Shown: one piece after another, positions 8,085-54,598 of the stretch
Layout of the letters: each line of letters begins with the position of its first letter
Numbering within the stretch: position 1 is the stretch's first letter
Source: Persicimonas caeni
GTDB lineage: Bacteria; Myxococcota_A; Bradymonadia; Bradymonadales; Bradymonadaceae
DNA length: 64,000 bases
Assembly (NCBI RefSeq): GCF_006517175.1
Contig: NZ_CP041186.1
Location: forward strand, 124,001-188,000
Reading direction: 5' to 3'
The notes under the pieces: model-generated
Seen by the model: the letters and a program-made list of their open reading frames with translations, nothing else
Databases searched by the model: none
Told to the model about the DNA's origin: nothing
Made by a program: the position numbers and the translations under genes

Positions 8085-8158
8085 CGGAGCGTGGCGCAGC
8101 ATGGTAGCGCACTTGCATGGGGTGCAAGGGGTCCCCGGTTCAAATCCGGGCGCTCCGA
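8085..8158 (+). tRNA. tRNA-Pro (GGG anticodon)
   Basis: A complete cloverleaf is visible: acceptor stem CGGAGCG/CGCTCCG, D-arm GCGC..GCGC with AGCATGGTA, anticodon stem CTTGC/GCAAG with loop ATGGGGT (anticodon GGG), T-arm CCCGG TTCAAAT CCGGG, and discriminator A. CCA is not encoded. The 3' 46 bases are the integration core, and the copy left here is intact, as usual when the element restores the tRNA. Confidence 0.95.
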
Positions 8159-8160
8159 CT
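8112..8160 (+). other. attL: tRNA-Pro 3' core (copy 1 of 4)
   Basis: These 49 bases, from the anticodon stem to GACT after the tRNA, recur exactly at 43100-43148 and 50619-50667, and as a 45-base version at 54554-54598. An integrase gene starts 180 bases downstream. This is the left attachment site of the prophage. Confidence 0.9.
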
Positions 8161-8199: not shown

Positions 8200-8338
8200 C
8201 TCGTTTCTTGCCCCTCCTCCGACTCCGGCCCAAACAACGATCTGACAAGTTATCTGCCAAGTTTCACTTGCAACCCTGGATCGACGGATAATAACCTAGA
8301 GTTCACGACTACGATTGATACGAATACGAGGGCCCGCC

Positions 8339-9745
8339 ATGGGGAAAGCGATTGAACCCTGCATCTATCCCGTCAAAGCCACCAAGCGCTACCCTGCGGG
8401 CTTCCGCGTGCGGAAGGTCGTTGTAGATCAATGGGGAGAGCAACGGCAGATCACCGAGATCATTCGCCCGATCGACGAATCGAGCGAAGCGAAGGCTGAA
8501 GCGCTCGAGCAGGCGCGCGCCCTGGTTAAGACGCTCGAGCGCGACAAGAGAACCGGCCGAATCTTTCGACGCTTCGACGATCCTGTGAAGCGAGATCTCC
8601 CCAACGTCGGCTACGGAATCAACTGGAGCGAGTACACCCCCGAAGAGGCACTCGCGCTCAACCGCGAGCTCAAGGAAGAAGCGCTCGAGTATCAGAAGGA
8701 CGCTGGCTCCGCCACAATGCGTGAGTTCGCCGAGGAGACGTTTCTGCCTTGGTACGAGGCCAACACCTCCAAGTCGAACTTCCAGAAGAAGCGCGCGGCT
8801 TGGAAGGCTGTTCTCGCGTATGACAAGGCCACCGCCGCCGGTCTCGGCCACCGCAAGTTATCGAGCCTCCGTCCGTCGGAGATCGACGATTTCGTGTCGT
8901 GGCTGGCCGGCCGCCAGAAGAAGGACGGCTCGTCGTACTACTCCAAGTCATCAATCAAAGGCTACTTCGCCGTGGTGCGATCACTGGTCAAGCAGTGGGC
9001 CGCCGACGAAGGCAAGGCCAACCCAGCTGATCCCGCGAAGCTCAAGACAGACCCTGCCAAGATCAAGGGCCGAAACAAAACCGAGAAGGTCGCTGGCGAG
9101 GGGCAACTCGCAAAGCTCGAGAAAGGCATCGAACTCGCGATCAGCAAGTCCCAGAAGCGCTATCTCTACTGCCGCGTCATCCTTCGGTATCTGCACCGGG
9201 TTCTGACGGGGACCGGGATGCGCGTGTCCGAGGCCCTTTTCCTCCGAACCGAGCATGTGGATTGGGACGGCGGCACCATCACGATTGAAGGCGCGGCTGT
9301 CGATGGGGTCCCCGGCCCAACCAAGACAGGCAAGAAATTAGGCGACCCCGCCAAGGGGGTGCGAGTCATTCCGATGTCTGAGGCCGTGGCCAGCACGCTT
9401 CGCGAGTGGCTCGACCTACGAGAGCAGTACGACTACCCCAGCGCAGACGAGTGCCCCACTATCTTTTGCACGATCGACGGCGGCTACTATACTGACGACC
9501 AGGTGCGTGACTACTACAAGCGCGCTCGCAAGATGTTCAACAAGCACACCGGCGGCGACCGACTTGAGAAGGCCATCACGCCCCATGACCTGCGTCACAC
9601 GTTCAACGACCGCCTGAGAAAAGCTGGCGTGCCATCTGAGGTAAGGGAGGCCATCCTTGGCCACGCCGATGGCGAGACTAACCGCGGATATACAAATCCC
9701 AAGGCGCTCGAAGGCCGTGATGCCATTGAAGCCGTCACGAGTTAA
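8339..9745 (+). CDS. int: Phage integrase, tyrosine recombinase
   Basis: This 468-aa tyrosine recombinase has a SAM-like core-binding domain in the middle and a C-terminal catalytic domain. The catalytic residues are readable: Arg in GTGMRVSEALFLR, the HDLRHTF box (His and Arg), a GHAD motif His, and the nucleophile Tyr in NRGYTNPK. I use the ATG at 8339, which has a GAGGG site 6-7 bases upstream; an in-frame TTG at 8315 would add eight residues. It sits 180 bases from the tRNA-Pro att core and should catalyse integration and excision there. No separate excisionase was identified. Confidence 0.93.
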   Translation: MGKAIEPCIYPVKATKRYPAGFRVRKVVVDQWGEQRQITEIIRPIDESSEAKAEALEQARALVKTLERDKRTGRIFRRFDDPVKRDLPNVGYGINWSEYTPEEALALNRELKEEALEYQKDAGSATMREFAEETFLPWYEANTSKSNFQKKRAAWKAVLAYDKATAAGLGHRKLSSLRPSEIDDFVSWLAGRQKKDGSSYYSKSSIKGYFAVVRSLVKQWAADEGKANPADPAKLKTDPAKIKGRNKTEKVAGEGQLAKLEKGIELAISKSQKRYLYCRVILRYLHRVLTGTGMRVSEALFLRTEHVDWDGGTITIEGAAVDGVPGPTKTGKKLGDPAKGVRVIPMSEAVASTLREWLDLREQYDYPSADECPTIFCTIDGGYYTDDQVRDYYKRARKMFNKHTGGDRLEKAITPHDLRHTFNDRLRKAGVPSEVREAILGHADGETNRGYTNPKALEGRDAIEAVTS

Positions 9746-32655: not shown

Positions 32656-32694
32656 ATGTAGCCTCTAGGGGTGACGTGGGTGCGTTCAGGCGTG

Positions 32695-32733
32695 TGCAAT
32701 CGATTGCACTTTCAGCGGGTGCACACGTTTGCA
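32695..32733. promoter_or_regulatory. Two palindromic operator candidates upstream of the tail tube gene
   Basis: TGCAATCGATTGCA (32695-32708) is a perfect palindrome. A related TGCACACGTTTGCA (32720-32733) follows 11 bases later, ending at the stop codon of the upstream gene. They sit between the connector genes and the tail genes, a natural place for an internal late promoter. Confidence 0.7.
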
Positions 32734-39843: not shown

Positions 39844-41085
39844 CTACCACTTTTTGGACATACGCCCGCGGTTCGGCAGCGTGCCGACCGTGGTGGGCTC
39901 GGGTTGGTTCTTCTTGACTCGGTACAGGCCGTCGAAGTGCTTCCAGGCAAGAGCGAGCGAGCAGACGCAGTCGTCGTGCAGGCCCTCCGGCGCCGAATAC
40001 TTCACGCCGTTGCGGCGGTACTCGTACTCGAAGGTGTCGAGCTCGGCCTTGATCTCGTTGTCGGGAAAGCTCGTCTTGTGGCCCTGGATGGCCGTCGACA
40101 GCCCCTCCATGAGGTACTGCTTGGACTTCGGGGTAAACGTGTACCCCTCGAAGTTGCGGCCGTTGCGTTGCAGGTACTGAATGAGAACGTCGCCCACGCC
40201 GGTCGAGTCGACCAGTGCGTCGACGCCGTCGGTCAGGCGAACAATGGCTCGCTCGGTCGCTGGCCAGTCCTTCTGGAAGCGGTGGAACTCACAGACCTTG
40301 CCCTCGGAGTTCAGGGCGATGCCTACCGTCCAATCCGTCGAGCGTGCGAGGTCCCAGCCCCAGACGACCGGCGGGCCGGGGGCGAGTTGGGCGACGCAGT
40401 CGTCGATGGCTTTCATGCCGAACGGATTGCCGCCGTCGTCACTTGGCTCTGCGAGGTAGAGCTCCCGGAAGACGTGCTCGGGAAGCGCCTCTCGGGCGTC
40501 CTCGATCTCTTCACGAGGAATGATGCCCGCGTCGACCGCATCGTAGGCGGTGAGCTTGGCGTAGGCGTGTCCCTTGGCGCCCTGCTCTGCCCGGCGGCAG
40601 CCTTTGTAGAACCAGTTCGACCGGCCCTTGACGTTGCCGATGATGCGAATCGGCCCCTGCGTCGCCGTCAGCGTCGAGCGAACGGCCGTCCAGGCGTCCT
40701 CTTTGACGCGGGAGGCTTCGTCGATGACCGCGGCGTGGACGTCTTCGCCGTACAGCGAGTCGGGCTTGTCCGCCGACTTGAACCAGAGCTTGCCAGCGCC
40801 CTTGATGGCGATGGACTTCTCGGACAAGTTCTCGCGGTAGATGGCCCGCGGCAGGTACTTGCGCAGTCGGTCGAAAGCGATCTGCGCCTGTGAGCCAACC
40901 GGGGCGACCCACCACACGTTCTGTCCGTCCGCGCAACGCAGCGCCTGGACCAAGAGCCAGACGAGACAGCCAAAGGTCTTACCGGCCTTCGTCGACGCCT
41001 CGATCCACGCGTAGCGCGTCCCAGTGAAGATCGCCCGGCGCTGCTTGTCGTACAGCTCCGGGATCTGAATTGTTATCTCAGGCAC
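39844..41085 (-). CDS. Terminase large subunit
   Basis: The protein is 413 aa. The ATPase part has a Walker A (ASTKAGKT, residues 30-37) and Walker B (HAAVIDEAS). The nuclease part begins VVWGWDLARSTDWTV, with a second acidic motif in DALVDSTGVGD and a final HDDCVCSLALAW, giving the three Asp sites of an RNase H-like terminase nuclease. It is somewhat short but complete. It packages DNA with the portal encoded next to it. Confidence 0.92.
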   Translation of the reverse strand: MPEITIQIPELYDKQRRAIFTGTRYAWIEASTKAGKTFGCLVWLLVQALRCADGQNVWWVAPVGSQAQIAFDRLRKYLPRAIYRENLSEKSIAIKGAGKLWFKSADKPDSLYGEDVHAAVIDEASRVKEDAWTAVRSTLTATQGPIRIIGNVKGRSNWFYKGCRRAEQGAKGHAYAKLTAYDAVDAGIIPREEIEDAREALPEHVFRELYLAEPSDDGGNPFGMKAIDDCVAQLAPGPPVVWGWDLARSTDWTVGIALNSEGKVCEFHRFQKDWPATERAIVRLTDGVDALVDSTGVGDVLIQYLQRNGRNFEGYTFTPKSKQYLMEGLSTAIQGHKTSFPDNEIKAELDTFEYEYRRNGVKYSAPEGLHDDCVCSLALAWKHFDGLYRVKKNQPEPTTVGTLPNRGRMSKKW

Positions 41086-41091
41086 GCCCCT

Positions 41092-41514
41092 TTACAACGA
41101 CTCGGCATCGTCGCCCTTCTCCCACGGCACGTCGAGCTTGTAAGTCACTTCGCCCTTGTGTTCGGTGATGGTCCGATCGACGAAGTCGCCCTGGCTCTTG
41201 GCGAGCAACGTGGAGGCTTTGAGGCGGTCGGACATGGTCGCGTTGGGGTCATACATCACGCCCGTCCAGAACCGCTGTCTGTCGATCCTGTCGGCGACCA
41301 GCGGGTCTTCGTCGGTACGTTCGTCGATAGCCTCCTGAATCTGAGGTTTTCTAAGGTTCTCGTAGCCGGTCGACGAAAGGGTATCGTCGTCCCCGGAGTA
41401 GCCAGCGATCCTTGCGGCCTCAGTGGCATTGCCGCACGCCTTCCCCAGGTAGGCTTCGACAAACCGACGCTGTTTCTCAGTCAGCTTCGTCATCTTTGGG
41501 CTCGACGTCGTCAT
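41092..41514 (-). CDS. Terminase small subunit
   Basis: The protein is 140 aa of the Terminase_2 type. The N-terminus TEKQRRFVEAYLGKACGNATEAARIAGYSG is the DNA-binding HTH signature, and the C-terminus is acidic. It is followed by the large subunit after 6 bases. It overlaps the upstream gene by 38 bases if the ATG at 41514 is used; an ATG at 41493 is possible. Confidence 0.88.
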   Translation of the reverse strand: MTTSSPKMTKLTEKQRRFVEAYLGKACGNATEAARIAGYSGDDDTLSSTGYENLRKPQIQEAIDERTDEDPLVADRIDRQRFWTGVMYDPNATMSDRLKASTLLAKSQGDFVDRTITEHKGEVTYKLDVPWEKGDDAESL

Positions 41515-41881
41515 GGGTTACAAAGCAGCGGTTGTCGTCGATCTTGACCAGCGGTGCGGTCTTGACGGGACGGCCGTCGTCTACGGTGATGAAGTCGGCG
41601 GCGTCATAGGGGTTGTAGCGCACGGCCACCGGCAACGCGGGCTCGTCGTCTGGCTCGACCCAGCTCCCATGCACCTTGGCATGGACGTTCCGGCAGCCGG
41701 TCAATACGACGCGGTCGCGCATCTTCTCACTGACTCGGAACTGGGCCTTCTCCAGGAAGGCGGTTTCGCACCGGTAGATGACGCGCCCCTTCGTATTGGT
41801 CACGGAGAGCCCGCCGACGTGCAGGTTGTAGTGCACCCGCACCCATTGGCCGGGCTCCGGCTTCTGGTCGTAGTCGCCCAT
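41477..41881 (-). CDS. Hypothetical protein, first gene of the late operon; has a frameshifted paralog
   Basis: The protein is 134 aa and starts MGDYDQKPEPGQWVRVHYNLHVGGLSVTNTKGRVIYRCETA, predicted beta-rich. It has a close paralog at 48949-49340 in the next element. Its promoter region, shared with the divergent AlbA-domain gene, holds the TGCAATCGATTGCA palindrome. Function unknown; being first in the late operon it may be regulatory or packaging related. Confidence 0.65.
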   Translation of the reverse strand: MGDYDQKPEPGQWVRVHYNLHVGGLSVTNTKGRVIYRCETAFLEKAQFRVSEKMRDRVVLTGCRNVHAKVHGSWVEPDDEPALPVAVRYNPYDAADFITVDDGRPVKTAPLVKIDDNRCFVTHDDVEPKDDEAD

Positions 41882-41901
41882 GGCACCCCTTGGGTATGAA
41901 G

Positions 41902-41915
41902 TGCAATCGATTGCA
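41902..41915. promoter_or_regulatory. Palindromic operator in the divergent late/AlbA promoter region
   Basis: A perfect TGCAATCGATTGCA lies between the start of the late operon (41881) and the AlbA-domain gene (41984). A TATGCT -10-like box at 41940 follows. The same arrangement is kept at 49361-49374 in the second element. Confidence 0.75.
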
Positions 41916-41983
41916 CTCGTAAGTTCACGACCGGGTCGCTATGCTACGGCCCGACCAGGAAGCTCGAGATTTCAGGGAGAGGT

Positions 41984-42955
41984 ATGCGCAAAATCGACGT
42001 GGAGGCGTGGGCACGCCGAGTCATCGACATGGTGCTTGAGGGAAACCGAGTCGAGGACAGCCGTGTCGAACTCAAGGCTCATTTTCCGGGGGACCACCCA
42101 CACATCCCCGAAGACGTTCACGTCTTCAAGCACGCGCGGCAGTTGGCCGGACATGCGAACGCAGCTCGAGGTGCAGAGTTGCTGTGGTTATTCGGCCTCG
42201 ACGACGAGGCAAACTGCATCACGGACGTGGCCACAGACAAACGCGAGCACTGGTACCAGCGCATCAGCTCGAAGTTCGAGTCACTAGTACCTGAGCTTCT
42301 CGAGTGCCTCACGATCGACCACGCTGACGGAGTGGTAGTAGCCTTCTATTTTGGGACGGAGCGGGCGCCTTATCTCGTCAATAATCCGAAGGGCGGACGG
42401 ATTGACTATGAAGTGCCTTGGCGCGAGGACAATACGACAAGGACTGCCAAGAGACGCGATTTAGTCCGAGTTCTCGTGCCGGTGCAAAAGCTGCCTGGAA
42501 TTGAGTTGCTTCATGGTGAAATTGAGATTCAAAGACGCTCCCAAGGTGGCGGCTTTCTAAAAGCGACGGCCAAGATCTACATTGAGCCGTTTCCTGGAGA
42601 CAGCCTGTTCTTGCCTTTTCATCGGCTCCAGTTGATGACGTCGTTTATCTCTCCTGAAGAGCTGGAAAGTTGCACAGTTAAGTACGAGAATGCCAAAGTC
42701 GGCAAGTTACGAAGAGAGGTTCGATACGAGTCAGCGACCATCTCTTGTGGTCCAGCCGGCGTGCTAGTTTCAGGCCCTGGAGTATTCGAGTTTTGCCGAC
42801 AATGGGAGTTCCCGAACAACTTGCCAGCCATTTCGAACGGGCCTTCGTGGATCAGGTTCCTAGCCACGCCATCACATCAAGACCGGCATGTGGAGGAAGA
42901 AAGCGAATTGCACCATCTCAAGTCCGAAGGAAACCGAGCGTACTGGCGAACATGA
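41984..42955 (+). CDS. AlbA_2/Schlafen-like N-terminal domain protein, variant 1
   Basis: The protein is 323 aa. Residues about 25-125 carry the AlbA_2-type pattern (DSRVELKAHFPGDH ... ARQLAGHANAARGAELLWLFGLDDEANCIT ... PELLECLTIDHADGVVVAFYFG), in which a conserved E-x-K is followed by an A..N..GG-like helix. The C-terminal 150 residues are beta-rich and unlike those of the paralog at 49443. It is the last gene before the right att core and reads opposite to the late genes, the usual place of cargo or anti-phage genes in prophages. Role inferred, not shown. Confidence 0.65.
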   Translation: MRKIDVEAWARRVIDMVLEGNRVEDSRVELKAHFPGDHPHIPEDVHVFKHARQLAGHANAARGAELLWLFGLDDEANCITDVATDKREHWYQRISSKFESLVPELLECLTIDHADGVVVAFYFGTERAPYLVNNPKGGRIDYEVPWREDNTTRTAKRRDLVRVLVPVQKLPGIELLHGEIEIQRRSQGGGFLKATAKIYIEPFPGDSLFLPFHRLQLMTSFISPEELESCTVKYENAKVGKLRREVRYESATISCGPAGVLVSGPGVFEFCRQWEFPNNLPAISNGPSWIRFLATPSHQDRHVEEESELHHLKSEGNRAYWRT

Positions 42956-43099
42956 AGCGTGACCCCACCAAATCTGACAAGTTTTCTGACAAGCCCAAAA
43001 AAGACCACACATTAACGGACCAAAAGACCCCAAACCCGCCCAAACCCTCTAAAAGCGGACTTTTTCGCCGCCATGTGGGTACAAACGAGACGCCCAAGG
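42956..43099. other. Gap before the att core
   Basis: These 144 bases hold short plus-strand TCTGACAAGTTTTCTGACAAG repeats and no gene. Related TGACAAGTTT elements occur just right of attL near 8240-8270 and before the third att core near 50492-50515, so they could be integrase arm-type sites. Confidence 0.4.
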
Positions 43100-43148
43100 C
43101 TTGCATGGGGTGCAAGGGGTCCCCGGTTCAAATCCGGGCGCTCCGACT
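43100..43148 (+). other. att core copy 2 (right end of the prophage)
   Basis: It is identical over 49 bases to the 3' part of tRNA-Pro (8112-8160). The tRNA 5' half is missing, so it is not a functional gene. It is followed by the displaced tRNA terminator. Confidence 0.9.
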
Positions 43149-43352
43149 TAGAAAACCCGACCGGCAACGGTCGGGTTTTTGCGTTCTTGCCCCACTCTCC
43201 CCACACCGTCACAACAAGCCCACCCGATAAGCGTAGCCGTAGGCGAAGCGCGCCGCACGAGGCGTAGCCGAGTGAGGCCTCTGTAGCCCCATCCGACCGG
43301 AGCGCAAGCGTAGGGAGGTTGGGGGGACAAATGGTGAACGCTCGACACGTGG
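43149..43352. repeat. Att-flanking repeat (copy of 54599-54798)
   Basis: About 200 bases after the att core, including a GTAGCC-rich segment (AAGCGTAGCCGTAGGCGAAG ... GGAGGTTGGGGGGACAAATGGT), are nearly identical to the bases after the fourth att copy. A more diverged version follows the third copy (50668-50870). Together with the core, this gives direct repeats of about 245 bp flanking the 43149-54598 block. Confidence 0.85.
43152..43180 (+). terminator. Displaced tRNA-Pro terminator with GNRA loop
   Basis: AAAACCCGACCG pairs with CGGTCGGGTTTT around a GCAA tetraloop, then T. The same sequence follows the other two right-hand att copies (50671-50699 with minor changes; 54602-54630). Confidence 0.88.
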
Positions 43353-43450
43353 TCGATCGCTCGACGTCACAACCTGGCTGGGCGTCGCAACGTGCGGGCG
43401 AATCGAAGATTGCCATTTCGATCGAAGCGGGTCGTTGGGAGATCGCCACA

Positions 43451-43640
43451 CCGACCACGTGTCGAGGCGTCCCACGGCGCCCCGGGCCCTCTCCTCGCTG
43501 GCGCTCGGGTCGGACCCGGCTACAGCGGCCTCAGCAAACAGCGCTTCGGCGTCGCTTCGCCTGCGGCTCAGCTCATCTTACGACGTCGCGCGACCGCATG
43601 AAGTGGACATCGTCGGGGAATGTACTTCCCTTCCGACGCG
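43451..43640 (+). repeat. Dispersed repeat family A, copy A1 (fullest copy)
   Basis: 190 bases run from CCGACCACGTGTCGAGG to the terminal hairpin CGTCGGGGAA-TGTAC-TTCCCTTCCGACG. Further copies are at 51941-52062, 52651-52827 and 58411-58513, plus a hairpin-only relic at 56591-56619. Its right part overlaps the end of the tail gene at 43568. Confidence 0.85.
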
Positions 43641-44044
43641 GGGAGCCGGTAGTCGCCCTTGCGTTGGAAGACATGCTTGCCGAGCTTCTTCGGCACGAAG
43701 GCATGCTTGATGAGCTTGCGGCCGGAGCTCTTCTTCACTCGGACGCTGGTACCCTTTCGGATTTGTCGGGCGCCATCGTGCTTGAGGGGGATGGGCTTAG
43801 CGTCGACGTCGAGGGTGGCCCGCGGGTTCGGCCGCCGCTTTGCCTTGTGCCTCTTGAGCGAGTCTTTGACGCTGCTCGCCTTCAGTGCGACCTCTTGGCG
43901 GACCCCTTTGCTGATTTCGGTGCGTAGGCCGCGGGCCGTCTTGTTGATGGCCCGGACTTGGGCGTTGATGACCTTCTTCGGGTGAAGGTTTTTTATCTCC
44001 GCCCTTACGTCACGGTCAGTCGGTCTGGCAGTGACTGCGAACAC
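43568..44044 (-). pseudogene. Prophage minor tail protein Z-like gene, 3'-truncated by repeat A1
   Basis: The open frame is 158 aa. Residues about 20-125 (VINAQVRAINKTARGLRTEISKGVRQEVALKASSVKDSLKRHKAKRRPNPRATLDVDAKPIPL...) match the GPZ minor tail family. From ASEGKYIPRRCPLHAV onward the frame runs through dispersed repeat A, so the native C-terminus is lost. The start is probably the GTG at 44044, which lies in the 7-bp target duplication of the IS21 element. The native promoter is now separated by the insertion. Confidence 0.65.
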
Positions 44045-44232
44045 AGGGTGTCACAGACCGGGGTAAGTGATCGTAGCTGGTTCGCCCAAAGTGACCACGG
44101 CTGGTTCGGCCAAAGTGATCGGCCCTGGTTCGGCCAAAGTGATCGCAAAATCGGGCGGATGTCGATGACCTGAAACGCTCAGACTGGGAGAATGCAGAGC
44201 AGATGGCTTTAGCCCCTGCTCTGGAGGACCCG

Positions 44233-45825
44233 ATGAGCAATGAGAGGATCGACATGCATCGATTACAAGACCTGGTGCGGATGCACCGTGAGGGCGTTGG
44301 CTGCCGCGAGATTGCCCGCCTTCTAAAGATGAGTCCCAATACCGAGCGCAAATACCGCCACGCGCTCGATGAGGCTGGATTGCTCAAAGGCGAGCCTTCC
44401 GAGATCATCCCACTGGACGAGCTCAAGCAGGCGGTCGCAGAGCTCCTTCCGACGAGCACGCCGCCCCAGGAGACCTCCACGGTCGAGCCGTGGCGCGCAC
44501 AGATTGAAGAGATGTACGAGCGCACGCGCTCACCCCGAGCCATCTGGGACAGGCTTCGGCTCGAGCACGCCGATTTCGACGGCAGCCTGTCCGCCGTCAA
44601 GCGCATGTGCGCCCGCATCAAAGCCGACAGAGGCCCACGTCCGCAAGATGTGGTCATTCGCGTCGAGACCGCGCCAGGAGAGATTGCCCAGGTCGACTTT
44701 GGCTATGTCGGCCGACTCTTCGACCCGATGAGCGGCAAAGTCAGAAAGGCTTATGCCTTCGTGATGGTCCTGGGCTTCAGCCGTCTGATGTACGTCGACC
44801 TGGTTTTCGACCAAAAGGTCGACACCTGGCTTCGCCTGCACGTCGACGCCTTCGAGTACTTCGGCGGCGTGCCCGAGACGGTGGTGCCGGACAATCTCAA
44901 AGCGGCGGTTGTGCGCTGCTATTTCGGGCTCAAGGACAAACCGGAGCTCAACCGAAGCTACCGTGAGCTTGCTCGCCACTACGGCTTTATGATTGACCCG
45001 ACCCCGCCGTATGCCCCTGAAAAGAAGGGCAAAGTCGAGTCGGCGGTCAAGTACGTCAAATCAAACTTCTTTGCGCCGCGCGCCCTCGAGAAGCTCGACG
45101 AGGCCAAGGAGCAATTGAGCCTGTGGCTCGACCAGATTGCCAATCGGCGAGTCCACGGCACCACTCACAGGGTGCCCCGCGAGCACTTCGACGCTGAGGA
45201 GGCAGAAGCACTTAAAGCACTGCCGCCGACGCCCTTTGTGCCGGTGGTCTGGAAGAAGGCCAAGGTCCACCGCGACAGCCACGTCGAATTCGAGCGCCGG
45301 CTCTACTCGGTGCCGTTTCGGCTCATCGGCCAGACCGTCTGGATCCGAGCTCGAGGCGCAAGCGTCGATATCTTCTATGACGACGAGCTGTGCACCTCGC
45401 ACAAGCGAAGCGGTCCCAGAAAGAGCACCCATGAGGCACACCTTCCTGAGGGGCGGCGCGATCTGCGCCACCGAAGCCGTCAGTGGTGGCAGGACAAGGC
45501 TGACCGGATGAGCCCGATCGTCGGCGAATATGTCGAGGAGGTCTTCGGGGCCGACGATGTCTTCAATCAGCTGCGCGCAGTCCAGGCGATCGTGTCGTAC
45601 CTCGAGCAGTTCCCCGTCGAGCGTGCCGAGGGCGCCTGCCGAAGGGCTCGCGCTTTCGGAAACTACACCTATCAAGGCATCAAGCGGATTCTGGTGGAGG
45701 GCATCGACTTAGAGCCTGCCATCCCGCAGGCCGTCTACGTGCACGGCAAGCTCGCCCACCCGCGTTTTGCCCGAAATTTCGAGGAGCTGGCCCTGGCCGA
45801 GGAGGTCTACCATGAGCGCTCGTGA
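44233..45825 (+). CDS. istA: IS21-family transposase IstA
   Basis: The protein is 530 aa from the ATG at 44233, which has GGAGG 5 bases upstream. An N-terminal HTH (MHREGVGCREIARLLKMSPNTERKYRHAL) is followed by an rve integrase core with the DDE residues: Asp in AQVDFGYVGR, Asp in VVPDNLKAAV and Glu in PEKKGKVESAVKYVK. A C-terminal beta domain follows. It catalyses cut-and-insert of the element with IstB. Confidence 0.93.
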   Translation: MSNERIDMHRLQDLVRMHREGVGCREIARLLKMSPNTERKYRHALDEAGLLKGEPSEIIPLDELKQAVAELLPTSTPPQETSTVEPWRAQIEEMYERTRSPRAIWDRLRLEHADFDGSLSAVKRMCARIKADRGPRPQDVVIRVETAPGEIAQVDFGYVGRLFDPMSGKVRKAYAFVMVLGFSRLMYVDLVFDQKVDTWLRLHVDAFEYFGGVPETVVPDNLKAAVVRCYFGLKDKPELNRSYRELARHYGFMIDPTPPYAPEKKGKVESAVKYVKSNFFAPRALEKLDEAKEQLSLWLDQIANRRVHGTTHRVPREHFDAEEAEALKALPPTPFVPVVWKKAKVHRDSHVEFERRLYSVPFRLIGQTVWIRARGASVDIFYDDELCTSHKRSGPRKSTHEAHLPEGRRDLRHRSRQWWQDKADRMSPIVGEYVEEVFGADDVFNQLRAVQAIVSYLEQFPVERAEGACRRARAFGNYTYQGIKRILVEGIDLEPAIPQAVYVHGKLAHPRFARNFEELALAEEVYHERS

Positions 45826-46564
45826 TGATCTGGTCCCCATCCTCAAGCGCCTGCGGCTGTCGGGGCTTCTCAATACGCTGGAGCTTCGCGCCGAGCAGGC
45901 CGTCGACGACAAGCTTGGCTACGTCGACTTTGTCTATCGACTGCTCCACGACGAGGTGGAGCGCCGCGATGCCAATAAGCTGACGCGCTTGATTCGCCAG
46001 GCTGATTTCGAGGCCCACAAAACGCTTCAGGATTTCGATTTCAGCTTCAATCCCAAGATCCCACGCGAGCGGATCATCGAGCTCGGCACCACAAGCTTTG
46101 TCGAGCGCCAAGAAAACGTGCTCCTGGTCGGCCCGGCCGGCACGGGCAAGTCGCACATCGCCCAGGCGCTGGGTCACCGGGCCTGTCGAGCCGGCTACAA
46201 GACCAGGTATGTCGCCGCACATCAGCTTTTGAGCGAGCTTCGAGCAGCCCGCGCCGACCGCAGCTGGGACAAGCTGATGTACAAGCTGTGCGCGGTCGAC
46301 CTCCTGATCATCGACGATCTTGGGCTGCGTCCGCTGGCCCAGGACGAGCCGGTCGACCTGTACGAGCTGATACGCCGCCGCTACGAGCAGGGCTCGCTCG
46401 TGATCACATCCAACCGCGCCATCGACGAGTGGTACGCCATGTTTGGTGACGCGCTGCTCGCCAGCTCGGCGATGGACCGACTGCTACACCACTGCCACGT
46501 CGTCACGCTCGACGGGCACTCGTATCGAAACCCGCCGTCGAAAGCCCGAGCCAAGACGGCCTAA
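45812..46564 (+). CDS. istB: IS21-family helper ATPase IstB
   Basis: The protein is 250 aa from the ATG at 45812 (GAGGAGG site), overlapping istA by 14 bases. It is a AAA+ ATPase with Walker A GPAGTGKSHIAQAL, Walker B VDLLIIDDLGLRPL and sensor STSNRAIDEW-like ITSNRAIDEW. It forms the DnaA/DnaC-like ring that selects target DNA for IstA. Confidence 0.93.
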   Translation: MSARDDLVPILKRLRLSGLLNTLELRAEQAVDDKLGYVDFVYRLLHDEVERRDANKLTRLIRQADFEAHKTLQDFDFSFNPKIPRERIIELGTTSFVERQENVLLVGPAGTGKSHIAQALGHRACRAGYKTRYVAAHQLLSELRAARADRSWDKLMYKLCAVDLLIIDDLGLRPLAQDEPVDLYELIRRRYEQGSLVITSNRAIDEWYAMFGDALLASSAMDRLLHHCHVVTLDGHSYRNPPSKARAKTA

Positions 46565-46666
46565 ACCCGATCACTTTGGCCGAACCAGCACCTTGAGGAG
46601 AACGACGAGAAATCGCCCATGACATCCGCCCGAAAATCGCGATCACTTTGGCCGAACTGAGCGCGA

Positions 46667-47050
46667 TCAGTTTGCCCGTCCGTTGACACACAGGGAGTTC
46701 TTAGTTCGTCTGTCGGCGTCCGGGCGCCCGAAGGTCTGGTCTGCCCATGCTGTTACGTCAGGATCGTCTCCGTACTGCTCTCGGATGTACAAGGCGAGCG
46801 AGTCGTCAGGCTTCACGTCGTCGTCGCCGAAGGCTTCCTTGATGAGGACGTGCACGTAGCGCTGTGTACGTTTTCCGTGGCGCCACAGGGTCACTCGTGG
46901 ACCGAGGGCGCCGGCGAAGGTCGACAACCGATTCGGGGAGGGTCCTTTGAGCGACCACACCTCGCCATCTCGAGAGATGACATAGTCGCCGTCGTAGCCA
47001 TCGACGGTGGCGTAGTCGGCCGCGGGTAGTTCGTCGAAATGCTCAGCCAC
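46667..47050 (-). pseudogene. NUMOD4-like gene, 3' end altered by IS21 insertion
   Basis: The start is the GTG at 47050 with a GGAG site; an upstream in-frame ATG lies beyond a terminator. The protein (about 127 aa) contains GDYVISRDGEVWSLKGP and VTLWRHGKRTQRYVHVLIKEAF, homologous to the 11818-12150 protein. Its last codons run into the IS right end. Removing the IS and one target copy joins it to SQSLPDRLTVT and a TAA, so only about 11 native residues were replaced. It may still be functional. Confidence 0.65.
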
Positions 47051-47068
47051 GAATACTCCAAGAAGCAG

Positions 47069-47095
47069 AAAGAGCCTCCGGATAGGAGGCTCTTT
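47069..47095. terminator. Bidirectional terminator
   Basis: AAAGAGCCTCC (47069-47079) and GGAGGCTCTTT (47085-47095) form a perfect 11-bp stem with A and T tails on both sides. It ends the exported-protein transcript (47196) before the NUMOD-like gene. Confidence 0.85.
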
Positions 47096-47195
47096 CACTC
47101 TCATTTTCTCTACGCGGAAAATGAGTAGGTGGGGCTTTCACTGCTTAGCCTTCTCTCGCTTCTGGAGAGCCGCGGAAGCAGTGTGGTCGGACGAC

Positions 47196-48236
47196 CTATT
47201 TCTCACTTTCTGCGGTCTTCTCCCCTTTCTCGTCCGGTGTCAGCTTGATCCGCATCTTGTGCTGGCGATCGGTATTCTGTGCATAAGTGAAGTGGAATGT
47301 GTATTCACCTTCGGTGAGTTCCTTGCCGGAAATCGGGGTACTTAGAGTCATGTGGGTGCAACCGTACTGACTGCAGTCCAGAAGTGTTGGCGTGTTGTCG
47401 CCCAAGCGGCCCTTGAACAAACGTTTTCCATCTCGGCTTGCGATCAACTGCCAAGCCTTTCCATAGACTAAATGCTCACGACCTCGGACAAGGACGCGAA
47501 CCCGCGGGATCTTGTCATCATCGAGGGTCTTCGGAGCGCCCACTCGCATGCAGACCTCGATGGTGACCCTATAGCTACCGCTAGAGGGCGCCTTGAGGCT
47601 GCGTCTTACGCATGCACCCTCCCGACTCCGTAGTTGGCTGTGCGGAAACGTCACATCCGCATCCAGGCCGTCCTCGAGAACGTAGAAGACGTCGTTGGAG
47701 GCCATGAAGTCTTGCAGCGCTGTCCCGGACTTTGGTGAACCAAGAGTGCTGGTATACACTTTCGAGCAGTCATCGAGAACGACCTGATAGTACTGTTCCT
47801 CCAAGCCACTGCTACTGTGGGAAATAGGCTTACTGAGCAGCTTTCCCTTCCGCCCTTGTAGCTTGTCATATGCCACGCCATCACCAACAAGCTTCGGCCG
47901 TTCACTCCAAAGCTGAAAGCCGTATTTCTTCAGGTCCTCTGCCTTATCGAACTTCACTAACTGCCCATCGAAGCTGTCGAGATCGCACTTGCTGCCAGCG
48001 TCGGCAGTCTTTGTAGAGTCGGCCGTGGAGCCGCTCGTGCCGGTCGAAGTCGCTGCGGTCTGCGAATCAGTGCTTGCAGGCGTCTTTTTCGTCGATTCCG
48101 ACTTGTGGCAGTGATAGTCCGAGCCGTCATTCTTCGTGTGACAGCCCTTCTTGTCCTTGAGCCCTTCATGCGCGGACGCAGCCAGCGGCGCGCTCAGTAC
48201 CAGGGCGCTCAGACCGGTTAGCCAAAGCTTCTGCAT
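47196..48236 (-). CDS. Exported protein with YHYH-like (YHCH) motif
   Basis: The protein is 346 aa from the ATG at 48236 (GGAGGGGG site). A Sec signal peptide (LWLTGLSALVLSAPLAASA) is followed by HEGLKDKKGCHTKNDGSDYHCHK, the conserved metal-binding-like motif of YHYH/YHCH proteins. A Thr/Ser-rich linker and two beta-rich domains follow. The C-terminal domain includes RVRVLVRGREHLVYGKAWQLIASRDGKRLFKG. It is probably periplasmic. It occupies a similar place to the lipoprotein at 15198 in the first element, so exported cargo seems typical of these elements. Confidence 0.75.
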   Translation of the reverse strand: MQKLWLTGLSALVLSAPLAASAHEGLKDKKGCHTKNDGSDYHCHKSESTKKTPASTDSQTAATSTGTSGSTADSTKTADAGSKCDLDSFDGQLVKFDKAEDLKKYGFQLWSERPKLVGDGVAYDKLQGRKGKLLSKPISHSSSGLEEQYYQVVLDDCSKVYTSTLGSPKSGTALQDFMASNDVFYVLEDGLDADVTFPHSQLRSREGACVRRSLKAPSSGSYRVTIEVCMRVGAPKTLDDDKIPRVRVLVRGREHLVYGKAWQLIASRDGKRLFKGRLGDNTPTLLDCSQYGCTHMTLSTPISGKELTEGEYTFHFTYAQNTDRQHKMRIKLTPDEKGEKTAESEK

Positions 48237-48384
48237 GTCCCCCTCCAGTGTGGGATTCGTGGCAATTCTGGCGGAGCGTGTCCGCCTAATATACGAGGGT
48301 CTTCGCGGCGATGCTAACAACGGCGGGGAAATTTTTCCAGCGGTTAAGATGCGTCTGTGAGCACCGGAGCGGCATCTTCGATCG

Positions 48385-48894
48385 TCACACGTGCAATCGA
48401 TTTCGGTCGGCGAGCTCGCGCTCGACATATCGGCGAGCGGTTGCGATTCGACGGCTGGCCGTGGCGTTCGAGATATCCAGTGCCCGCGCCACCTTGGACT
48501 GCGTGGCGTCGAGGACGTCGACATTCGACCAGAGGCTCCAGGCTTCCTCCCCTCGAGCTCGCCCCACCCCGCCCTTATGCTTTGATGCTGTCAGTCGGTC
48601 ACGGGCCGCATGGAACGCCTCGAGGATCCAATCGACGTGCCACACCAGCACCGGTGCCTCGACCCGGCTGTAATCCGGCGACGTCTGGACCCGGCAGCCG
48701 AGCTCGGCGATTTCGGCGTACACCTCAGTGAGCGAGCTAAGCCCGGGGCGGCCGTCTCGCCAGTGGTCGAGCACGATGCCGACGAAGAAGCCGAACTTGC
48801 GCGCGCTCTCAAACTGCGGATCACGCCGGTACAGGAGCGCAGATATCCAGTCAGGCTTGGCATGAATCGTAGCGAGTTGCTGGGACTGATACAT
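48385..48894 (-). CDS. HTH protein related to the 12150-12647 protein
   Basis: The protein is 169 aa. The C-terminal part DVLDATQSKVARALDISNATASRRIATARRYVE is a helix-turn-helix. The layout (YRRDPQF near the N-terminus, LGCRVQTSP in the middle, HTH at the end) matches the prophage protein at 12150 (YRRRPRF, LGTRVDTSM, HTH). It lies 54 bases after the frameshifted 48949 gene on the same strand. It is likely a regulator. Confidence 0.65.
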   Translation of the reverse strand: MYQSQQLATIHAKPDWISALLYRRDPQFESARKFGFFVGIVLDHWRDGRPGLSSLTEVYAEIAELGCRVQTSPDYSRVEAPVLVWHVDWILEAFHAARDRLTASKHKGGVGRARGEEAWSLWSNVDVLDATQSKVARALDISNATASRRIATARRYVERELADRNRLHV

Positions 48895-48948
48895 GATGAC
48901 CTCGTGCGTCTCGATGAGGTGGGTGGGGTGCGAATCAGAAGGGGGATC

Positions 48949-49340
48949 TCACTCGAGGGCCTCCACGTCTGCATCGGTGACGTAACAGCGGTTGTCGTCG
49001 ATCTTGACCATGGGGGCTTCTTTGACCGGCTGGCCGTCCTGACGGTGATGAAGTCGCCGGCGACGAAGGGGTTGTAGCGCACCGCCACAGGTAGCTCCGG
49101 CTCCTCCTCGGGCTCGACCCAATGACCGTGCACCTTTGCGTGTACGTTGCGACACTCAGTCATCACCACGCGCTGGCGCATCTTCTCACTGACCCGGAAC
49201 TCGGCGTCCTCGATGTAGGCGGTCTGGCACCGGTAGATGTCGCGGCCCCTCGTGTTGGTTACGGAGAGCCCGCCGATGTGCAGGTTGTAGTGCACCCGCA
49301 TCGATTGGCCGGGCTCCGGCTTCTGGTCGTAGTCGCCCAT
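48949..49340 (-). pseudogene. Frameshifted paralog of the 41477 gene
   Basis: The N-terminal 97 codons (MGDYDQKPEPGQSMRVHYNLHIGGLSV...YNPFVAGDFITV) match the intact copy. After ACC GTC a single base is missing (about 49041). The homologous ending DGQPVKEAPMVKIDDNRCYVTDADVEALE then continues in another frame to a stop at 48949. The total length (392 bases) is one short of a whole number of codons, consistent with a one-base deletion. Confidence 0.8.
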
Positions 49341-49360
49341 GGCGCCCCTTGGGTTTGAAG

Positions 49361-49374
49361 TGCAATCGATTGCA
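49361..49374. promoter_or_regulatory. Palindromic operator in the second element
   Basis: TGCAATCGATTGCA lies between the frameshifted gene and the second AlbA-domain gene, in the same position as 41902-41915. A TATGCT box follows. Confidence 0.75.
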
Positions 49375-49442
49375 CTCGTAACTTCACGGCCAGCCCGCTA
49401 TGCTACGGCCCAACCAGGAAGCTCGAGATTTCAGGGAGAGGT

Positions 49443-50489
49443 ATGCGAAAAATCGACGTGGAGGCGTGGGCACGCCGAGTCATCGACATGGTGCTCGAGG
49501 GAAACCGAGTCGAGGACAGCCGTGTCGAACTCAAGGCTCATTTTCCGGGGGACCACCCACACATCCCCGAAGACGATCACGTCTTCAAGCACGCGCGGCA
49601 GTTGGCCGGACATGCGAACGCAGCTCGAGGTGCAGAGTTGCTGTGGTTATTCGGCCTCGACGACGAGGCACACTGCATCACGGACGTGGCCACAGACAAA
49701 CGCGAGCACTGGTACCAGCGCATCAGCTCGAAGTTCGAGTCACTAGTACCTGAGCTTCTCGAGTGCCTCACGATCGACCACGCTGACGGAGTGGTAGTAG
49801 CCTTCTATTTTGGGACGGAGCGGGCGCCTTATCTCGTCAATAATCCGAAGGGCGGACGCATCGACTTTGAGGTGCCATGGCGTGAGGACAATACGACACG
49901 GACCGCAAGACGTCGCGATCTCGTATCGGTCTTGGTGCCGGTTCAGCGCTTACCTGATGCAGAAATGCTACTAGCTGCAGCCTCGGTCGGTCGACCAAAG
50001 GACAGGCTCGTTTTCTGTCTCGATGCTCAAATCTACCTGGAGCCGCTTGGCGAAGGACAAATCGTGTTTCCGTTCCACAGGATCCGATTAGAGTCCCCTG
50101 AGCTAGAATCCATTCATCTTTCTAGGTGGTCGCCGTATTTCGCATCAGCCGAGCCTGCAGGGGCATTCGGAGACGGCAAACATACCTCAATGGTAGATTG
50201 TCGCGGTCATGCGATTGTTCTGGGAGGACCGACGAGCATTGCGCTGAGACTCAAATGGTTCCCGACTGACATGGGGTACGACGTCTTCCCCGACAAGTTC
50301 GACGTAACGCTACGCCTGCAACCCTCAAGACTCGGGACCGATGTCGTTTTGCGTGCAACCTTCAGCAGCGAGCGCCCAATTCGGAACAAGGGGACAATTG
50401 CTCCCATCGCGCTTGATATCAGCGATTACGAAAATGCAGAACGCATTTGGATTGCCGAACCGACTAACTCTTGCGGACAAGCCCCATAA
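49443..50489 (+). CDS. AlbA_2/Schlafen-like N-terminal domain protein, variant 2
   Basis: The protein is 348 aa. The first 415 bases differ from the 41984 gene at only about four positions (for example V45D and N76H). Similarity drops from codon 139 and is gone after about codon 170. The remaining 175 residues (from LPDAEMLLAAASVGRPKDRL) are unrelated to the other copy and beta-rich. It lies directly before an att core, like its paralog. This pattern suggests a constant sensor or nuclease-type domain with exchangeable C-terminal parts. Confidence 0.65.
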   Translation: MRKIDVEAWARRVIDMVLEGNRVEDSRVELKAHFPGDHPHIPEDDHVFKHARQLAGHANAARGAELLWLFGLDDEAHCITDVATDKREHWYQRISSKFESLVPELLECLTIDHADGVVVAFYFGTERAPYLVNNPKGGRIDFEVPWREDNTTRTARRRDLVSVLVPVQRLPDAEMLLAAASVGRPKDRLVFCLDAQIYLEPLGEGQIVFPFHRIRLESPELESIHLSRWSPYFASAEPAGAFGDGKHTSMVDCRGHAIVLGGPTSIALRLKWFPTDMGYDVFPDKFDVTLRLQPSRLGTDVVLRATFSSERPIRNKGTIAPIALDISDYENAERIWIAEPTNSCGQAP

Positions 50490-50618: not shown

Positions 50619-50667
50619 CTTGCATGGGGTGCAAGGGGTCCCCGGTTCAAATCCGGGCGCTCCGACT
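50619..50667 (+). other. att core copy 3
   Basis: 49 bases identical to 8112-8160, followed by a close version of the displaced terminator (50671-50699, loop GGCAAA). The flanking repeat after it (50725-50870) is diverged compared with copies 2 and 4. Confidence 0.9.
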
Positions 50668-51108
50668 TAGAAAACCCGACCGGCAAAGGTCGGGCTTTTG
50701 CGTTCTTGCCCTCTCAAAACCCACAACAGGCCCACCCGATAAGCGTAGGCGAAGCCGAAGCGCGCTGGGAGCGCAGCGACCGAGTAGTCTTGGGCTGCGC
50801 CGAACGAGGCGTAGCCGAAGTGAGGCCTCTGTAGCCTCATCCGACCGGAGCGCAAGCGTGTGGCTCCTTGCGGGGCACGTGGTGAGGAGAGCCGTCAAGC
50901 CTACGGAAGTCCGCGCATCCTCTGCCCCCAACGGCATCAAAACTCCACTCAACCACGATTGCATCGACTCGCACAGCAGCCTACACTTCGAACATAAACC
51001 TTTTACTCAGGGCGGGCCGAGATGCCGTGGGCGACACTCCGTACAATGCGTGTTCGATCGCCGGACTGCATCACGTGCCAAATACAACGGATCATGTGGA
51101 GATTACTG
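50668..51108. other. Gene-free stretch after att copy 3
   Basis: Contains the terminator and a diverged flanking repeat (AAGCGTAGGCGAAGCCGAAG ...). From 50870 to 51108 nothing is recognised; a promoter for the following gene is expected there. Confidence 0.5.
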
Positions 51109-51717
51109 ATGGAAACCTTGATGATACTCTCGCTTATCGGGCTTGCGCTCTTCATCTTCTTTGGCGTGCGTTTCATTCATCGACGCAATGGCGGCGGCGC
51201 GACTGATAAAGAGTCCAAGGAACCTACAGGAGTTCGTCGGTTTCGCGAGCAGCACCAAGAGGCGGACGAAAGAATCATTGGCGCTGTCGATGCATGGATC
51301 GGAGAGATTTTCGAATTGAAAGCCTCCGATCAATTCACCGGCTCTTTGCTCCTCACCAACAAGCGTTTGGTTTTCGTCGGCACTTCCTTCCGTCTGGGCT
51401 CGGCGGACGCGGAGAGAACCCAGCAGATTTCTGTCGACAAGATCCGCACTCTGGATATTTCGGCCGACAAAGCGCTTCTCGCGCTCGAGGTAAATGACGA
51501 GTATGAGTACGGCATGCGAGACAATCCAGAAAACCGCGAGTTTCTAGAGTCAGTGAGGCGCGCGAAGTCGCAACCGTCCGCACCATCTCATTCGAGCTCC
51601 ACCGGGGGCGCCGACCCGCTGGAGCAGCTCGAAAAGCTCAAGGGACTCCATGACTCAGGGGTGTTATCAGACGCCGAGTTTGAACAGAAGAAGCGCGCAC
51701 TCCTAGAGAGAGTTTGA
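51109..51717 (+). CDS. Membrane protein with bacterial PH-like and SHOCT domains
   Basis: The protein is 202 aa from the ATG at 51109, which has GGAG 7 bases upstream. One membrane helix (TLMILSLIGLALFIFFGVRF) is followed by a PH-like domain (FTGSLLLTNKRLVFVGTSFRLG ... ISVDKIRTLDIS) and a C-terminal SHOCT motif (DPLEQLEKLKGLHDSGVLSDAEFEQKKRALLERV). SHOCT is an oligomerization motif. Its exact role is unknown. The end overlaps the next gene fragment. Confidence 0.78.
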   Translation: METLMILSLIGLALFIFFGVRFIHRRNGGGATDKESKEPTGVRRFREQHQEADERIIGAVDAWIGEIFELKASDQFTGSLLLTNKRLVFVGTSFRLGSADAERTQQISVDKIRTLDISADKALLALEVNDEYEYGMRDNPENREFLESVRRAKSQPSAPSHSSSTGGADPLEQLEKLKGLHDSGVLSDAEFEQKKRALLERV

Positions 51718-51876
51718 TAACTCGCCCAGGCAATCAATCGCCATAAACGCATCGACAAGCCGCGCGTAGTCCTGCTCATCGACACAGCACCGGCAGTAAT
51801 CGTCCATTGGCGTTCGCCGGTCCAGGACGAATACCCGATACAAGTCTTCGACAGCGGCTTTGCGTTCGTCGGTCAT
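51703..51876 (-). pseudogene. 5' fragment of a CxxC-containing DUF gene
   Basis: About 57 codons start MTDERKAAVEDLYRVF and include YCRCCVDEQDYARLV. As I recall, longer myxobacterial-type proteins begin similarly (aromatic helix, then CxCCV) and continue for about 150 residues more. Here the frame stops at the end of the PH/SHOCT gene, so the gene looks cut. Confidence 0.5.
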
Positions 51877-51940
51877 TGTGCTGCACATTCGTCGGCGCAA
51901 TCCTCAGCTCTCGAAGTTGCAAGTCGACGTCCCCTCCAGG

Positions 51941-52062
51941 GGCTACCCATGCCTCAGCAAACAACGCATCGGCACCGCTTCGCCTGCGGCTCCGCTCATC
52001 CAAGAACGTCGCGCGACCGCATGGAGTGGGCTTCGTCGGGGAATGTACTTCCCTTCCGACGC
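51941..52062 (+). repeat. Dispersed repeat family A, copy A2 (right part)
   Basis: Contains GCCTCAGCAAAC ... CGCTTCGCCTGCGGCTC ... GACCGCATGGAGTGGGCTTCGTCGGGGAATGTACTTCCC (positions 51951-52062), with the left 80 bases of the A1 copy missing. It ends 6 bases before the VOC gene's stop codon. Confidence 0.82.
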
Positions 52063-52067
52063 CCCCA

Positions 52068-52487
52068 TCACGTCGCAAAAAGCTGGTCCGGGTCCCGAAA
52101 CGACTTGAACTCCAAGGCGTTGCCGCTCGGGTCCTGCACGAACATCGTCGCCTGCTCGCCTGGCTTGCCCTCGAACCGGGTGTGCGGCTCGATGAGAAAC
52201 TCGACCTCCGCATCGCGCAACCGGTCGGCGAGTTCGTGCCACTTCTCCCACGCCAAGACGACGCCAAAGTGGCGCACCGGCACGGCGTCGCCGTCGACCT
52301 CGTTGGTGCGCGAGGCGCTCACCTCTTCGGGTCGCAGGTGCGCCGAGATCTGGTGGCCGAAGAAATCGAAGTCGATCCAACGCTCGTCGGTTCGGCCGAC
52401 GCGGCAGCCGAGAACGTCCACGAAGAAGGCGCGCGTCGCCTCGAGGTCGGAGACCGGAAAGGCCAGGTGAAATGGTGATTCGGACAT
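52068..52487 (-). CDS. VOC-family (glyoxalase/dioxygenase-like) protein
   Basis: The protein is 139 aa. Paired beta-alpha-beta-beta units are evident: [26 protein letters not shown] and [29 protein letters not shown]. The ending [15 protein letters not shown] supplies the metal-ligand Glu. The start has an AAGGAG site. The substrate cannot be told. It looks like an ordinary chromosomal gene, which supports capture of host DNA between the att sites. Confidence 0.88.
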
Positions 52488-52539
52488 GTGTCTACTCCTT
52501 GCTCAGGTGTTGGGGCTCAGAACGCGAGCGCGTTGCCGG

Positions 52540-52644
52540 GCATAAACCGACCACGCCGCCGATCCGCAAGATGCTCCTCCCTGTGGCGCGTTTTCCAGCG
52601 CCATGGGGAGGTGTCGAGTGTTGTTCACGAGACGGAGGGGCGGG
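52540..52644 (+). repeat. Dispersed repeat family B, copy B1
   Basis: 105 bases including the hairpin CCTCCC-TG-TGGCGC...GCGCCA-TG-GGGAGG (about 52577-52611) and TCGAGTGTTGTTCACGAGAC. The second copy is at 59448-59549, over 90% identical by eye. B1 is followed 6 bases later by repeat A3. Confidence 0.85.
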
Positions 52645-52650
52645 CCACAT

Positions 52651-52827
52651 CGACCACCTGTCGAGGCATCCCACGGCGCCCCGGGCCCTCTCCTCGCTGG
52701 CGCTCGGGTCGGACCCGGCTACAGAGGCCTCAGCAGACGGCGCTTCGCCTGCGGATCCGCTCATCAAAAACGTCGCAGATGCGCATGGAGTGGACATCGT
52801 CGGGGAGTGTACTTCCCTTCCGACGCG
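52651..52827 (+). repeat. Dispersed repeat family A, copy A3
   Basis: Nearly full length. It shares the left part with A1 (CGACCACCTGTCGAGGCATC ...), the central GGACCCGGCTACAGAGGCCTC and the terminal hairpin. It shows a short deletion in the middle (GCTTCGGCGTC missing). The gap 52488-52877 contains only B1 and A3. Confidence 0.85.
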
Positions 52828-52877
52828 GCTCGATTGGAGTTCTGGCCAATCCTCACCGCTGATGACATCGACACCCT

Positions 52878-53219
52878 CTAGGTACGTCGGGCAACAACTA
52901 ACTCTCCGTCGACTTTGCGAAACTCGAAGTGATCCTCCTTCCCTAGGAATCGCGCAGTTGCCATAAATGCCGCGATGCGCACTGCTCTGGCCGTGGTATC
53001 AGTAAGAAGCCGCGTGACCTCACAGCACCTTACCCGGTGCGAATCGATGTCTGGGAATCCGGCTAACGCCTCTCTAACTCCCTCTTGAGCACCACGCAGC
53101 CACTCATTTGGGATCACGTTGAGAGACTCTGAATAGTCTTCAGAGTCGCATACGGTCACCTCCGCAAACATGCCTCTGCCATCTACCTGACGCCACAACC
53201 TGTAGGTTACAGATGTCAT
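52878..53219 (-). CDS. Hypothetical protein
   Basis: The protein is 113 aa from the ATG at 53219, which has GAGG 5 bases upstream. Sequence MTSVTYRLWRQVDGRGMFAEVTVCDSEDYSESLNVIPNEWL; predicted alpha/beta. The phrase HVIPN-like NVIPNEWLRGAQEGVREAL resembles the last part of some elongation factor G-like domain IV proteins of myxobacteria, but the match is weak. No function is assigned. Confidence 0.5.
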   Translation of the reverse strand: MTSVTYRLWRQVDGRGMFAEVTVCDSEDYSESLNVIPNEWLRGAQEGVREALAGFPDIDSHRVRCCEVTRLLTDTTARAVRIAAFMATARFLGKEDHFEFRKVDGELVVARRT

Positions 53220-53293
53220 AGGAGCCTCGAAGAGGTACCAATAGTCCAAGTGCCGCCGGCAAAACAGCTGCCCCGGTCGAAGCGCGGTGAGCT

Positions 53294-53452
53294 TTACGGG
53301 ACCAGAAACACTAAAAGAAAGCCTGGAGTGAGCAACAGAATCAGAAGAGCAAACACAGCAATAAACCAAATCAGCACCACAAAGACCCCAATGCGGACAA
53401 GCTTCTTCCGACGTTCCTGCTGCGCACTGCTTTCTGAATCTTGCTTTGCCAT
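53294..53452 (-). CDS. Very small membrane protein
   Basis: 52 aa: a basic N-terminus (AKQDSESSAQQERRKKLVRIG) and one long or two short hydrophobic helices (VFVVLIWFIAVFALLILLLTPGFLLVFLV). No ribosome site is evident. It might be a toxin-like peptide or the rest of a longer gene. Confidence 0.4.
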   Translation of the reverse strand: MAKQDSESSAQQERRKKLVRIGVFVVLIWFIAVFALLILLLTPGFLLVFLVP

Positions 53453-53602
53453 CGCTGCCGCTGACAGTGTTCTATGATTAGCGCGCCCCTGCAATTCAAT
53501 GGAGTGTATTGAGTATACCCGCGCAGCGGCCTCTTGACCATCACGAGCAACGCTGTGCGCCGGTCGGCGTGATGGGAAGACTACTCGCATACGAGATACC
53601 TG

Positions 53603-54418: not shown

Positions 54419-54529
54419 TGCGCAGAATGCTGGACACCTTCATGCACCGAACCTTGGCAGGTGGAGTTCGAGGGTGAGATGGTCGAGTGCCCGGCCTGTC
54501 ACCGGTACTGGCTGCGGCCCAACACTTGA
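54419..54529 (+). pseudogene. Zinc-ribbon gene fragment before att copy 4
   Basis: After the TAA of the preceding gene the same frame reads CAECWTPSCTEPWQVEFEG, then EMVECPACHRYWLRPNT and a TGA. There are two CxxC pairs and no start codon. It looks like the 3' remnant of a small zinc-ribbon phage gene. Confidence 0.45.
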
Positions 54530-54553
54530 GCAACATTGGCCCGAGAAACCTGA

Positions 54554-54598
54554 CATGGGGTGCAAGGGGTCCCCGGTTCAAATCCGGGCGCTCCGACT
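54554..54598 (+). other. att core copy 4 (rightmost)
   Basis: 45 bases matching the tRNA-Pro 3' part; the upstream match ends at CATGGGG (the anticodon-stem CTTG is replaced by CTGA). It is followed by the terminator (54602-54630) and by what looks like the original chromosomal flank. It is the most likely original attR. Confidence 0.88.

Follow-up and report, generated by a model that had tools for sequence, protein, structure and literature searches.

A prophage-borne pair of Schlafen AlbA_2-like genes with near-identical N-terminal halves and strongly diverged C-terminal halves in Persicimonas caeni

Introduction

Two paralogous genes of Persicimonas caeni, here called A and B, are best read as members of a rare and unnamed branch of the bacterial Schlafen (AlbA_2) proteins, RNases with a hypervariable C-terminal sensor that temperate phages carry at their integration end as cargo for defence, an interpretation that we consider reasonably probable. 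For both proteins we infer the RNase activity, the sensing role of the C-terminal half and the function in defence. Bacterial Schlafens have been linked to anti-phage defence only recently. Schlafen-family RNases are described as backup effectors in BREX systems (PMC12839542), and an anti-phage role of bacterial Schlafens is attributed there to a preprint (doi 10.1101/2025.07.24.666596, as cited in PMC12839542).

The window, that is, the whole stretch of 64,000 nucleotides that was analysed, comes from a single-contig genome of 8.05 Mb. The family comprises A, B and five relatives of about 320-350 aa, seven loci in all. The relatives are found in a Planctomycete MAG (L004), on plasmids of Gordonia (L005) and Rhodococcus (L006), and on two viral contigs (L032 and L007, the latter a truncated homolog).

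Genes A and B close two elements stacked at one tRNA gene

Four exact tRNA-Pro att cores of 45 bp lie in tandem (Table 1; the fourth starts at 54554), and their succession from tRNA-Pro(GGG) onward indicates a stack of several elements at a single site. The sequences 3' of the cores are near-identical tails of 90-230 bp, whose repeats recur elsewhere in the genome. Element 1 (prophage 1, 8.1-43.1 kb) looks like a complete tailed prophage, with an integrase, replication proteins, HNH, tail, head, protease, portal and terminases, and gene A is its final gene before the right att. At 17939-19081 this prophage also carries a likely toxin-antitoxin pair, in which a 237-aa gene adjoins an antitoxin gene of Panacea/SocA type (18653-19081; Pfam E 5e-20). 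Element 2 (prophage 2, 43.1-50.7 kb) contains a connector gene, an IS21-type pair, an HNH fragment and a Phage_L5_gp82-like gene, with gene B last before the att. A third small element with a SHOCT-domain gene (51022-51717) lies behind both prophages at 50668-54554.

The original prediction placed both genes at a fixed cargo site, between a gene of the type found at 41477 and a tRNA-Pro att core, in related prophages. Each gene is indeed the last before the att at a prophage end, and the neighbours are as described, except that the gp82-like gene on the B side is frame-disrupted. The description of the elements themselves needs correction, as that of gene A looks complete and that of gene B is an IS21-carrying remnant of 7.5 kb, not a whole prophage.

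Table 1. Features of the att array, of genes A and B and of their surroundings, in window coordinates
Feature	Position	Strand	Basis or remark
att core	8116..8160	+	inside 3' half of tRNA-Pro(GGG); left end of array
Integrase, prophage 1	8315..9745	+	phrog_1, E 5.7e-43
Putative operator, third copy	32693..32710	.	1 edge mismatch; unrelated flanks; 38 bp upstream of tail gene 31669-32655
Terminase large subunit, prophage 1	39844..41085	-	late operon begins at operator
Phage_L5_gp82-like gene	41477..41881	-	Pfam E 9e-26; phrog_586
Near-identical tract, gene A side	41891..42430	.	operator, promoter region, codons 1 to ~140; sliding identity, codon analysis
Putative operator	41900..41917	.	palindrome AGTGCAATCGATTGCACT, between divergent late operon (41881 leftward) and gene A
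Gene A, Schlafen AlbA_2-like, 323 aa	41984..42955	+	intact ORF; putative catalytic E24, E29, K31; family alignment, profile-profile, structure neighbours
att core	43104..43148	+	right of gene A
IS21-type istA/istB pair, element 2	44203..46564	+	by eye, from ORF sequences and layout
Phage_L5_gp82-like copy adjoining gene B	48591..49340	-	frame-disrupted (fused ORF)
Matching tract, gene B side	49350..49880	.	approximate ends
Putative operator, identical copy	49359..49376	.	upstream of gene B
Gene B, paralog of A, 348 aa	49443..50489	+	intact ORF
att core	50623..50667	+	right of gene B

The N-terminal half is a Schlafen AlbA_2 domain

By sequence comparison, the N-terminal half of A and B is a Schlafen AlbA_2 domain covering approximately residues 20-160, in line with the AlbA/Schlafen-like module originally proposed. 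Profile-profile alignment (hhalign) of the family N-domain with 17 Pfam SLFN_AlbA_2 (PF04326) proteins gave a probability of 97.4% (E 1.4e-11), while the best of 40 column-shuffled control profiles reached 1.4%. Among the homologs, L006 matches the full Pfam domain with E 1.8e-4 and 22.5 bits (cut-off 25.3), and L007 gives a further sub-threshold match (E 0.0037). Neither A nor B has a match in Pfam or PADLOC, and alignment scans against PHROGs and NCBIfam returned nothing convincing. The AlphaFold models, made from an input alignment of four sequences, are of low confidence (pLDDT 54 for A and 46 for B, pTM < 0.4). With VIA-align, the N-domain of model A matched DIP2311 (Z 7.0), 2kyy (6.6), SLFN14, SLFN11, SLFN13 and SLFN5; the matches listed are all AlbA_2 or Schlafen structures, with Z values of 4.9-7.0, none reaching 8. 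CbCash (PDB 9ylu), whose AlbA_2 domain aligns and carries E-x4-D-x-K, is the sole PDB sequence that the family profile finds, weakly (E 0.98).

Residues E24, E/D29 and K31 are kept in 6/6 aligned homologs, giving the motif E-x4-E/D-x-K, with a spacing identical to that of E209, E214 and K216 in SLFN11, where mutating any one of the three abolishes tRNA cleavage (PMC9482658). A and B resemble the mammalian SLFN11/13/14 core in this spacing and perhaps, by the low-confidence model, in fold, but that core is pseudo-dimeric, whereas A and B have one AlbA_2 domain per chain and lack the helicase part. As E-x4-E-x-K is widespread among AlbA_2 proteins generally, the motif is no proof of an RNase.

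A recombination tract ends inside the N-domain

The two proteins are identical at 138 of 140 positions in residues 1-140 (99%) and at 27 of 31 in residues 141-171 (87%); from about residue 172, where the hypervariable, beta-rich C-terminal half begins, identity to the end is about 20%. DNA alignment agrees with the roughly four base differences reported for the first 415 of the ORF, and the promoter regions match, including the same perfect 18-bp palindrome. The tract is 97-100% identical at its centre and 90% at its edges, the 97-100% block running from the intergenic region, which it largely covers, to about coding base 420. Upstream, inside the Phage_L5_gp82-like gene, which is about 80% identical, DNA identity decays (70-95%, dropping to 70-85%), and after codon 171 it is about 50%. 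Outside the att region, the only DNA that elements 1 and 2 share is a 990-bp block made up of the gp82-like gene and the N-terminal half.

Purifying selection was rejected as the reason for the near-identity, because synonymous sites match too. Four-fold sites differ between A and B at 2/27 positions in residues 1-60, at 0/29 in residues 61-120 and at 7/14 in residues 141-171, and their near-identity in residues 1-120 rules out selection on the protein and identifies a recent recombination tract. A clean swap at the domain border was rejected as well, since the 99% identity ends within the N-domain, near residue 140; on its upstream side the tract takes in the operator and reaches toward the adjacent gene, which makes it a homologous-recombination patch. 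The original prediction took the drop in similarity for a module boundary, but the border in the sequence is this recombination breakpoint.

One may ask whether plain gene conversion between tandem copies is enough to explain the pair, with an N-terminal tract homogenised by chance and C-terminal halves that drifted without a role in specificity. A near-identical tract within otherwise diverged DNA, with its breakpoint inside the N-domain, speaks for such an event, as does the decay of gene B's element, with its IS21-type insertion and broken neighbour gene. Nevertheless, A and B retain 87% identity in residues 141-171 and about 80% in the adjacent gene, so that drift alone is insufficient for a C-terminal half at 20%, a value unexpected from drift over the same time, and the frame of B is intact over its 348 codons. 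We therefore regard plain gene conversion as unlikely. As far as can be read from the alignments, the divergence of the C-terminal half is explained by replacement with an older allele or by exceptional diversification.

The C-terminal halves are diverged versions of one domain

The C-terminal half is, as anticipated, far more variable than the N-terminal half (20% vs 99% identity), but the two versions, which had been described as unrelated, are homologous. BLASTP of A against B from residue 176 to the end gives E 2e-6, and the local score of 73 lies above the 28 +/- 5 of shuffled sequences, whose maximum was 55 (n=500). A-x-I-Y-x-E-P ... P-F-H-R is common to both halves, as is a G-P farther on, and all six aligned homologs have an invariant P210-x-H212. 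A single domain, and not exchangeable domains of different families, thus stands behind the common N-domain.

Identity in this half is 20% between A and B, 22-23% between either of them and L032, and 32% between L032 and L004; A and B are as distant from each other here as from relatives in other phyla. AlphaFold predicts, at low confidence, an all-beta structure with the same strand order in both. Aminopeptidase N, an OST subunit and CBM3, suggested for this half by Foldseek and VIA, were rejected as generic beta-sandwich matches (Z ~5) to a low-confidence model.

Relatives lie near restriction and other defence-type genes

Closer homologs with the N-terminal half of A and B were found neither in 379 genomes of the phylum, nor in 57 genomes of the class searched with an enlarged profile, nor in the phage records, plasmids and viral contigs searched; the many C-terminal variants that had been expected behind the same N-terminus did not appear. 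The more distant relatives do lie beside or near restriction or other defence-type genes, as had been proposed. L032 starts 11 bp 3' of a 1146-aa type IIG restriction-methyltransferase gene (REase_MTase_IIG, 1608 bits), L007 comes after an Mrr-type PDC-S02 gene with HsdR nearby, L006 has a Fic protein (candidate family PDC-S04) in its vicinity, and the neighbours of all three match PADLOC models. In its position immediately 3' of REase_MTase_IIG, L032 resembles type IIG restriction-linked accessory genes, whereas A and B have no adjoining RM gene within the window and no defence-gene neighbours there. As only seven loci of the family are known, its association with defence rests on few cases.

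Some of these loci deserve mention in their own right. The type IIG restriction enzyme and the Schlafen-like gene (L032:4549-8960) form an apparent two-gene defence operon. L007 (L007:8001-8657) holds a truncated Schlafen-like N-terminal half, a decayed gene in a defence island, and by eye it looks as if it runs into the C-terminus of a type III restriction subunit. The gene 3' of the Planctomycete homolog (L004:9119-9727) matches HEPN_RiboL-PSP weakly (E 0.005) and contains an R-N-A-F-A-H-G motif; its product is possibly another RNase.

A putative operator shared with the late genes

The perfect 18-bp palindrome upstream of both genes, for which shuffled sequences give a chance expectation of none, is a putative operator. 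Beyond these prophages, the 8-Mb genome has only two copies of its 16-bp centre, each with two mismatches, about the chance level; the palindrome is thus virtually confined to the prophages, as a phage-specific operator would be. No sigma-70 promoter was found in a scan of the region. The gp82-like gene heads a leftward late operon (gp82-like, terminases, portal) that is divergent from gene A, and the palindrome between them puts gene A at the same control point as the late genes, so that its expression may be limited to the lytic phase.

This arrangement would also suit a nucleic-acid-binding phage regulator of the AlbA_2 type, acting on late genes or lysogeny, in which the C-terminal halves diverged to fit phage-specific partners. 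For many AlbA_2 proteins the only annotation is DNA-binding, which counts in the same direction. However, no HTH or other regulator domain was found in A or B, the homologs on plasmids and viral contigs adjoin restriction or Fic genes and not phage late genes, and the operator is absent near L032. A regulator of this kind seems to us quite improbable.

Discussion

Among the alternatives, we give very little credence to the idea that mobile elements use the protein against restriction or other defences: most members are on or near such elements (prophages, plasmids, viral contigs), often beside restriction genes, but L032 is in one apparent operon with its element's own RM enzyme, which fits co-defence better, and the nuclease motif is conserved.

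Under the defence-cargo reading that we favour, the AlbA_2 domain (residues ~20-160) would probably be a metal-dependent RNase with tRNA or another RNA as its most likely substrate, and the beta-rich C-terminal domain would probably be a sensor or regulator that recognises a product of infection and releases the nuclease, which would then stop translation in the infected lysogen. The C-terminal domain would diversify fast, and co-resident phages might recombine homologously via the conserved N-domain, the operator and the adjacent gene, setting the same N-terminus before different C-terminal alleles. It is conceivable, although here we are doubtful, that the C-terminal domain acts in recognition, is hypervariable and is renewed when phages stacked at one tRNA recombine in the conserved nuclease half, which would leave every lysogen with a differently aimed exclusion protein in the same cargo position.

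With the bacterial Schlafens (PF04326), as far as the sources cited above present them, A and B share an AlbA_2 N-domain with E-x4-E-x-K, a variable partner domain and, through their family relatives, defence neighbourhoods; they differ in falling below every library threshold. The BREX-linked Schlafens have a minimal histidine kinase and a wHTH tail (PMC12839542), whereas A and B have a beta-rich hypervariable C-domain with an invariant P-x-H and without a recognised Pfam domain. Current defence finders miss this branch, and models made from it would detect more of its kind. The pair amounts to a natural experiment in which, within one strain, the nuclease half and the promoter are nearly the same and the C-terminal halves are very different, and it thus bears on how the partner domains of bacterial Schlafens sense infection.
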